A DNA stretch of 29,260 bases from a virus, in the IMG/VR virus record IMGVR_UViG_3300035670_000994, positions 1-29,260 of that record, one strand, 5' to 3'. Within the stretch, counting starts at the first letter, position 1. Each line of letters starts with the position of its first letter. The notes below the pieces were generated by a model, which saw nothing but the letters and a program-made list of their open reading frames with translations, made no database searches and was not told the origin of the DNA. Shown here piece by piece: positions 26,227 to 28,051 of this stretch. Position numbers and translations under genes: made by a program.

Positions 26227-26298
26227 TCCTCCTTAGCTCAACGGCAGAGCAGAGAGCTGTTAACTCTAAGGTTCGTGGTTCGAATCCACGAGGGGGAG
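26227..26298 (+). tRNA. tRNA-Asn(GTT)
   Basis: The cloverleaf is readable: acceptor TCCTCCT with AGGGGGA, D-arm GCTC with GAGC, anticodon loop CTGTTAA (anticodon GTT) and T-arm CGTGG with loop TTCGAAT and CCACG. The discriminator is G and the CCA is not encoded. The anticodon stem has a G-A mismatch at its outer pair (27-43). It starts 7 bases after the stop of the metallopeptidase-fold gene, so it may share that transcript. Confidence 0.92.
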
Positions 26299-26304
26299 CA
26301 AACA

Positions 26305-26384
26305 GAAGTCCTTTTCTTGGATGGGAATACTCGCCCAACTACAGGATTTCTGGGGCATACACTTTTCTGCGGGCAGTGTATGCC
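26305..26384 (+). other. Structured inter-tRNA spacer, two stem-loops
   Basis: The 92-base spacer between tRNA-Asn and tRNA-Trp can fold almost fully. GAAGTCCT (26305-26312) pairs with AGGATTTC (26343-26350), one G-U, enclosing a small TGGG/CCCA hairpin. GGCATACACT (26354-26363) then pairs perfectly over 10 bp with AGTGTATGCC (26375-26384), with an 11-base loop. No T-run follows, so it is not a standard terminator. It may be a processing signal, a small RNA or a tRNA relic. Confidence 0.5.
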
Positions 26385-26390
26385 TAACTT

Positions 26391-26461
26391 ATCACCCAAG
26401 TGTTACGGTAGCACAGCAGTCTCCAAAACTGTTGGACCAGGTTCAATTCCTGGGGGTGGTG
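26391..26461 (+). tRNA. tRNA-Trp(CCA)
   Basis: Acceptor ATCACCC with GGGTGGT, D-arm GTGT with GCAC, anticodon arm GCAGT/ACTGT with loop CTCCAAA (anticodon CCA), and T-arm CCAGG with loop TTCAATT and CCTGG. The discriminator is G; CCA is not encoded. 71 bases. All arms pair. Confidence 0.9.
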
Positions 26462-26462
26462 C

Positions 26463-26609
26463 TCTTTACAAAACGATTCTGAACAGTCGTTGTAGAGATC
26501 GTGTAATTGAATCTACGGGTTCCAGCGGTATGATTGAGGGGTTCAGCCAAAACATCATGCGTCTAGGCGAGAACTAGATTACACAGCCATCAGCTCTTGC
26601 GTGGATGGC
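26463..26609 (+). ncRNA. Candidate structured RNA between tRNA-Trp and tRNA-Asp
   Basis: The 152-base spacer holds three consecutive foldable elements with 1-2 bases between them. First, a 14-bp hairpin, 26463-26498, with an AA bulge (TCTTTACA-AA-ACGATT with AGTCGT-TGTAGAGA, loop CTGAAC). Second, an 84-base element, 26501-26584, closed by GTGTAAT with ATTACAC and holding a 7-bp inner hairpin (26528-26534 with 26554-26560) plus TCTAG-loop-CTAGA (26562-26578). Third, GCCATC (26586-26591) with GATGGC (26604-26609). No open reading frame of merit lies here. It could be a structured RNA or degraded tRNAs. Folding is by eye. Confidence 0.4.
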
Positions 26610-26613
26610 ACAA

Positions 26614-26687
26614 GGCCTGGTAGCTCAGTTGGTTAGAGCACCACCCTGTCACGGTGGGGGTCGTGGGTTCAAGTCCCATCCAGGTCG
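26614..26687 (+). tRNA. tRNA-Asp(GTC)
   Basis: Acceptor GGCCTGG with CCAGGTC, D-arm GCTC/GAGC with loop AGTTGGTTA, anticodon arm CCACC/GGTGG with loop CTGTCAC (anticodon GTC), and T-arm GTGGG with loop TTCAAGT and CCCAT. The discriminator is G; CCA is not encoded. The ATG of the next gene is 2 bases past its 3' end. Confidence 0.92.
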
Positions 26688-26689
26688 CT

Positions 26690-27325
26690 ATGGAAATACA
26701 AATAAGAGATATTCCAGTAGTCTTAATAAACATGCATAAGGATGTCTTAAAAAAAGAACGCATGCTTTTGATGCTTGATCAAATTGGCATAAACAACATA
26801 ACGATAATAGATGCAGTAGACGCAGAGTTTATTTCTGACACACAGTTTAATGCCATATCAATGTCTCACGAGATGGCAATTGATGTTGCTATAGACTACC
26901 GGGGTCCTGTCCTTATACTTGAGGATGACTGTCTTTTAAACAATGGCTTGCCAGGTACCCTTGTGATTCCTGATGATGCAGATGCTGTTTATCTTGGTCA
27001 CTCAGCAGCTGGGGTATCGTCTATTCCAGTTGTGATTAAAGATACTACTTTTGCAGATATTACTGGCAGTGCATCATATTCTAGGCATAACGATCTAATG
27101 TATAGGATAAGCAGCATGGTGGGGGCACATGCCATTCTTTACATAAGTGATCGCTTTAAGGTTTTAGCTAACGAGCTAACTAGGTATGCGTATAATAAAT
27201 CTATTAATCATGACATACTATTTGTAATGCTACAGCAGATGTATAATGTATATGGATACTATAATCCATACTTTGTGCAGACAAGCCAGTATCAGCTAAG
27301 TAGAGAGTTTTTAAATGGAAATTAA
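26690..27325 (+). CDS. GT25-like glycosyltransferase A
   Basis: About 211 residues from ATG 26690, two bases after tRNA-Asp; the in-frame GTG at 26654 lies inside the tRNA and is rejected. The pattern matches glycosyltransferase family 25: N-terminal strand VVLINMHKDVLKKERM, IDAVDA near residues 40-45, a His-containing helix (SMSHEMAI), then RGPVLILEDDC with Glu78-Asp79-Asp80, the metal and nucleotide-sugar site, and a later SMVGAHAILYISDRF helix. Length is on the short side for the family (about 220-280). It lacks a ribosome site, so the mRNA may become leaderless once RNase cleaves the tRNA. Acceptor unknown. Confidence 0.78.
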   Translation: MEIQIRDIPVVLINMHKDVLKKERMLLMLDQIGINNITIIDAVDAEFISDTQFNAISMSHEMAIDVAIDYRGPVLILEDDCLLNNGLPGTLVIPDDADAVYLGHSAAGVSSIPVVIKDTTFADITGSASYSRHNDLMYRISSMVGAHAILYISDRFKVLANELTRYAYNKSINHDILFVMLQQMYNVYGYYNPYFVQTSQYQLSREFLNGN

Positions 27326-27967: not shown

Positions 27968-28039
27968 GCCTTCTTAGCTCAGTGGTAGAGCAACGCACTT
28001 GTAATGCGTAGGTCGTCAGTTCAATCCTGACAGAAGGCT
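27968..28039 (+). tRNA. tRNA-Thr(TGT)
   Basis: Acceptor GCCTTCT with AGAAGGC, D-arm GCTC/GAGC, anticodon arm with loop CTTGTAA (anticodon TGT), and T-arm GTCAG with loop TTCAATC and CTGAC. The discriminator is T; CCA is not encoded. It reads ACA, a codon used often in these AT-rich genes. It has its own promoter motif just upstream. Confidence 0.93.
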
Positions 28040-28051
28040 CTGAGGAGATAA

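Follow-up and report, generated by a model that had tools for sequence, protein, structure and literature searches.

What occupies the spacer between the tRNA-Trp and tRNA-Asp genes of this phage, a decaying tRNA or a structured RNA of its own kind? The window, by which we mean the whole stretch of DNA analysed here, is an IMG/VR virus record of 29,260 bases. An initial sequence-only reading had described stacked structures in this spacer: a 5' hairpin, an 84-base element of tRNA size with an acceptor-like closing stem and a T-arm-like hairpin, and a third hairpin. It had allowed for either a new structured RNA or a decayed tRNA. All three structures are present, and the spacer as a whole (26463-26613) folds at -46.9 kcal/mol, compared with -35.7 +/- 3.8 kcal/mol for shuffled sequences (z -2.98; 1/200 shuffles). 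The first and third hairpins were each confirmed at their predicted places and were scored individually (Table 1). However, the 84-base middle by itself gave an unexceptional folding energy (z -1.1; 29/200 shuffles). Folding energy alone would leave the finding undecided and was dropped as a test.

Homologues were sought among related phages, and RNR-beta and terminase searches yielded 160 loci; loci are cited below by L numbers. A search with the adjacent protein (26690-27322) returned no relatives, the gene probably being too variable, and a short exact pattern gave 10 matches, no more than expected by chance. Blastn among the related loci detected the spacer element in L015, L016, L017 and L018, with weak matches in L064 and L069; these copies lie between tRNA-Asp and tRNA-Glu or tRNA-Thr, unlike the Trp/Asp setting of the window. 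When the first members were aligned, the loops stayed and the stems changed together. A first covariance model, R1, was built from nine members; it retrieved L081/L083 at E 8e-7 and L138 at E 0.003, none of which had been used in its training and all of which are situated in tRNA spacers. A second model (R2) was built from ten diverse members, and its score on the window (106 bits, E ~1e-23) is that of one of its own training sequences. Scanning IMG/VR with a degenerate pattern returned 98 stretches and 71 confirmed matches, already known members included, while the pattern matches that the covariance model left unconfirmed were located away from tRNA genes. Further members were added by a second IMG/VR scan with a pattern containing no loop letters. 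In all, 76 distinct IMG/VR homologues adjoin a tRNA gene on at least one side and 70 of them do so on both; the length in relatives is 149-190 nt. Since the patterns fixed some conserved letters, sequence conservation is inflated in this larger set; the covarying helix columns were largely unfixed.

The 11 long element-bearing records (94-120 kb) that were searched whole contained one convincing copy each. Searching 86 related IMG/VR records whole with R2 gave 12 strong matches, and weak covariance-model scores of about 11-17 bits elsewhere were put down to chance. When the spacer region or the L215 member was compared by blastn with 50,697 phage records, only the tRNA was matched, or nothing, and a scan of genome contigs for the conserved core gave no match. 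A covariance-model search of five Stanwilliamsviridae relatives, the Streptomyces phages Gilson, Coruscant, Phredrick, Riptide and Mandalore, likewise produced nothing convincing (best 17 bits).

The fold was then derived from 45 representatives with pairwise identities of 46-92%, aligned by plain MAFFT without a model (alignment A7). Applied de novo, RNAalifold recovered hairpin H1, helices P1 and P2, the tip of P3 and hairpin H5, with double compensatory changes in 26 of the 31 pairs. With the loop-loop pairs described below included (35 pairs), 97.3% of the cells are paired and 333 cells are double-changed, compared with 103 in shuffled alignments and 23-51 with slid partners. The covariation over these 35 pairs is 0.564, as against 0.198 when shuffled (0/500) and at most 0.091 with slid strands. 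The result from 60 distinct sequences aligned to the covariance model agrees with the counts from the MAFFT alignment. The comparison shows a fold preserved by compensating mutations, arranged in the order hairpin H1, arm P1-P2-P3 and 3' hairpin H5. The closing stem that had been proposed for the 84-base element, GUGUAAU/AUUACAC, corresponds to P1. In relatives, the GUUC/GAAC pairing of P2 is replaced by GUGG/CCAC, GUCA/UGAC or GUAG/CUAC, and its inner GC pairs with GC at 26567-26568 in the subgroup of the window. In the lower part of P3, a set of 10 diverse members has double changes at 6 of 7 pairs, and the pairing is less regular across the family as a whole (66% of cells). Since the energy of the 84-base piece is near random and its covariation overwhelming, the comparative evidence is what establishes that this piece is real.

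Table 1. Coordinates in the window of the spacer RNA, its structural parts and the tRNA genes
Feature	Positions	Strand	Evidence or pairing
tRNA-Asn	26227-26299		ARAGORN + Rfam
Flanking tRNA-Trp(cca), 5' boundary of the RNA	26391-26462	+	ARAGORN + Rfam tRNA
Whole RNA unit, from tRNA-Trp 3' end to tRNA-Asp 5' end	26463-26613	+	76 homologues, rigid boundaries; R2 match
Hairpin H1: stem UCUUUACAA/UUGUAGAGA, bulge, CGAU/GUCG	26463-26498	+	z -3.8, 0/200 shuffles; double changes in 6/7 counted pairs (45 sequences)
H1 loop CUGAAC, kissing side	26479-26484	+	Complementary to 26541-26546; compensatory changes
Helix P1, 5' strand (GUGUAAUU)	26501-26508	+	Pairs with 26577-26584; 6/7 counted pairs covary, 99.7% of cells paired
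Helix P2, 5' strand (GUUC, then GC)	26519-26526	+	GUUC pairs with GAAC 26571-26574, double changes in 4/4 pairs
Helix P3 lower part, 5' strand (GUAUGAU)	26528-26534	+	Pairs with 26554-26560
P3 tip, short GG/CC stem closing the loop	26538-26548	+	3/3 pairs covary in the family alignment
P3 loop GUUCAG, other kissing side	26541-26546	+	Complementary to H1 loop 26479-26484
Helix P3 lower part, 3' strand (AUCAUGC)	26554-26560	+	Pairs with 26528-26534
Helix P2, 3' strand (GC ... GAAC)	26567-26574	+	Pairs with the 26519-26526 strand
Helix P1, 3' strand (GAUUACAC)	26577-26584	+	Pairs with 26501-26508
3' hairpin H5 (GCCAUC/GAUGGC, inner GC/GC)	26586-26609	+	100% of outer cells paired, double changes in 4/6 outer pairs; z -2.2, scored as segment 26584-26613
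Flanking tRNA-Asp(gtc), 3' boundary of the RNA	26614-26688	+	ARAGORN + Rfam tRNA
tRNA-Thr	27968-28040		ARAGORN + Rfam

Viewed in the window alone, a 7-bp closing stem together with a 5-bp hairpin carrying a 7-base loop could suggest a decayed tRNA, or hairpins that arose in the spacer by chance. The T-arm-like hairpin (UCUAG/CUAGA) does exist in the window, but all five of its pairs are possible in only 2 of the 45 homologues, most of which allow two, and the GAAC in its loop pairs with the upstream GUUC to form P2. Neither the tRNA model (RF00005) nor ARAGORN calls a tRNA in 26463-26613, and the massive covariation belongs to a different fold, which is not a cloverleaf. We consider the decayed-tRNA and chance readings refuted. 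The spacer element very probably functions as an RNA, the unit of function being the entire spacer of ~150 bases and not the 84-base part that had been singled out. A coding origin was rejected as well, with at least 41 of the 45 representatives having a stop in every frame and no frame being conserved.

The loops of H1 (CUGAAC) and P3 (GUUCAG) are exactly complementary. Since the first degenerate pattern demanded both loops, the kissing pair was tested with the pattern that contained neither. Among the 38 distinct members found in this way in which both loops are readable, the variable position is C-G in 34, U-A in three (L289, L295 and L300) and U-G in one (L299), and it is broken in none; another U-G occurs in L305, which was obtained by an unrelated pattern. 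A comparison of L300 with L253, the sequence closest to it, shows three differences in 170 positions, and two of these are the kissing partners themselves. The U-A pairs of L289 and L295 stand in a sequence background different from that of L300. Of the six pairs in the kissing helix five never vary, so that the U-A and U-G evidence concerns one pair, with about two independent origins of U-A. We conclude that the H1 and P3 loops very probably pair. The covariation fits an intramolecular and an intermolecular kissing helix alike and cannot tell one from the other. CUGAAC and GUUCAG loops pairing between molecules could assemble the RNA into rings or chains, as in ROOL and GOLLD, and this possibility overlaps with the explanation that we prefer, which allows either kind of kiss. 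The perfect preservation of complementary hairpin loops, with a compensatory change, and a genomic niche like that of ROOL and GOLLD (PMC12286853) are consistent with such self-assembly. However, an intramolecular kiss accounts for the same data, and the RNA is much smaller than either of these two, neither of which it matches; we therefore regard self-assembly as conceivable, if rather unlikely.

The boundaries of the element are rigid. At the 5' junction, CUC directly follows the tRNA end in 66 of 70 cases, with no CCA encoded, and at the 3' junction GGCA plus exactly 3 nt precede the next tRNA in 51 of 74. Since the flanking tRNAs form 32 different pairs among the homologues, the RNA behaves as a cassette bounded like a tRNA gene. 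With such rigid, tRNA-adjacent ends, RNase Z and RNase P would release the RNA through established tRNA processing. The same junctions would be expected if the element were a cis-acting spacer of the tRNA transcript that insulates the pre-tRNAs, positions their termini for cleavage by RNase Z and RNase P, and serves no purpose once released; that nearly all copies lie inside tRNA arrays would also suit a cis processing element. However, in these arrays the majority of tRNA spacers are without the element or measure 1-5 nt, and its length of ~150 nt and its conserved tertiary contact, well away from the junctions, also speak against this role. Moreover, one homologue (L291:10220-10383, minus strand) is the only one without a tRNA within 1.5 kb, which speaks for a function of the RNA's own. 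Overall, we judge a purely cis-acting role improbable. In L291 an ORF starts ~40 nt downstream, as might be expected of a cis-regulatory element, such as a riboswitch, of the downstream gene, and the manA RNA, which is present in the same arrays, is labelled cis-regulatory by Rfam. This reading is disfavoured, since 74 of the 76 distinct sequences have a tRNA as the next gene downstream, with many different isoacceptors, and we think it very improbable.

We then asked how the element relates to known RNAs. A scan of 26463-26613 against Rfam matched no family at E values up to 10. The GOLLD and ROOL models gave no match in the window (E up to 10) or in eight RNA-bearing loci (E up to 1). The tmRNA model (RF00023) and ARAGORN found none in the window. 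Its array position and its use of tRNA ends as boundaries resemble a tRNA gene, but the RNA has no cloverleaf, tRNA-model match or T-arm. In phage T4, RNAs C and D are likewise stable non-tRNA RNAs encoded in the tRNA cluster, though of a different phage lineage. GOLLD and ROOL are phage-borne as well (GOLLD also prophage-borne), occur near tRNA islands (GOLLD often) and have kissing loops, conserved in ROOL (PMC12286853). However, GOLLD members often exceed 800 nt, compared with 149-190 nt here, and ROOL is large, with a far more complex, multi-pseudoknot structure. The manA model (RF01745) matches neighbouring spacers of the same arrays (L018, L039, L061 and L081), adjoining the present RNA in L018, L039 and L081, but does not match the element itself. 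The manA RNA was described in cyanophages and marine samples, where it was regarded as a putative 5'-UTR element (PMC2864571). Its matches at L018:15749-15931, L039:16047-16228, L061:15492-15672 and L081:15668-15852 lie in or beside tRNA arrays and not clearly upstream of a coding gene, which calls its cis-regulatory label into question. The open-access literature on tRNA-array RNAs, kissing loops and manA, a scope that takes in few subscription papers, does not describe the RNA. With its covariation-supported conserved secondary structure and its location between tRNA genes, the element belongs to a known kind, the structured noncoding RNAs of phage tRNA arrays; since it matches no Rfam model and has no published description in the open literature, it is a new family within that kind. 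The suggestion of a new structured RNA is thereby supported.

The terminase of the window shares ~55% identity with its counterparts in Streptomyces phages of the Stanwilliamsviridae, among them Gilson and Coruscant. A closer terminase relative (66%) lies inside a Candidatus Nanopelagicales MAG from Lake Baikal, and the host is likely a freshwater actinobacterium. Where a long stretch could be compared, terminases of element-bearing loci are ~55 to 85% identical to that of the window, so that the RNA occurs across a broad section of this phage lineage, yet patchily. One relative encodes a separate tmRNA (L107:11163-11492, minus strand; tag AKYTPEEYALAA), which was seen in this locus only.

Several other spacers in these arrays also carry conserved sequences. 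The Asn/Trp spacer of the window (26300-26390) holds another structured RNA (z -5.8), whose homologues in L085, L304, L305 and L306 have stems that differ on both sides; L305 has both this RNA and the one in the Trp/Asp spacer. A spacer of ~50 nt (TAATGGTGTGGTCCATACCACTC...GGGTAT...ATAAAAATGGACA) is very common (L023, L024, L044, L054, L071, L073, L077, L082 and others); by eye it resembles a compact H-type pseudoknot, and it gave no gathering-level Rfam match in L039, L081, L082 or L085. A conserved spacer of ~190 nt (GGGGTCGCACCCCTAGGAGGCTGATATACC...) is found between tRNAs at different positions (L061:15904-16096, L085:9952-10140 and L088:5454-5640), and another (ACAAGTGCACGTAAAA... GGTTCGGAGTTGGTCACTCGTCTTAGGAAACGAC) lies between tRNAs at L080:10400-10690 and L147:20664-20983 and upstream of tRNA-Asp in L172.

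Taking the evidence together, we consider it likely that the element is a stand-alone, trans-acting structured RNA of ~150 nt, a new family cut from the tRNA transcript. It would be transcribed together with the phage tRNA operon. RNase Z, cutting the upstream tRNA on the 3' side of its discriminator base, would generate the 5' end of the RNA, and RNase P, cutting at the downstream tRNA, its 3' end. The RNA folds into H1, the interrupted arm P1-P2-P3 and H5, and a 6-bp loop-loop helix between H1 and P3 would close it into a compact shape. Since H1 and H5 seal its ends, the product would be a stable RNA that acts in trans during infection. Its target may be the host's machinery for tRNA or translation, a guess prompted by the array location and by the ribosome binding of GOLLD in pull-downs, as cited in PMC12286853. 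The comparison of homologues demonstrates conservation, secondary structure, kissing interaction, boundaries and genomic context. Our certainty is highest for the fold and the kiss and decreases through the boundaries, the processing and the trans action to a target in translation or tRNA biology. As a more speculative idea, to which we give a low probability, a small phage RNA cut out by tRNA enzymes and assembling via its loops could be a small-scale analogue of the cages formed by GOLLD and ROOL, one of several unrelated families using the same slot in the arrays.

Phage tRNA arrays are usually considered for codon supply only. Here, their spacers hold a widespread and strongly constrained RNA, beside manA and several recurring spacer RNAs. 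With 149-190 nt, a covariation-supported kissing loop and exact ends, it is a compact and well-defined addition to the unexplained RNAs of phage tRNA arrays, small enough for structure determination and for tests of roles in translation, tRNA processing or self-assembly.
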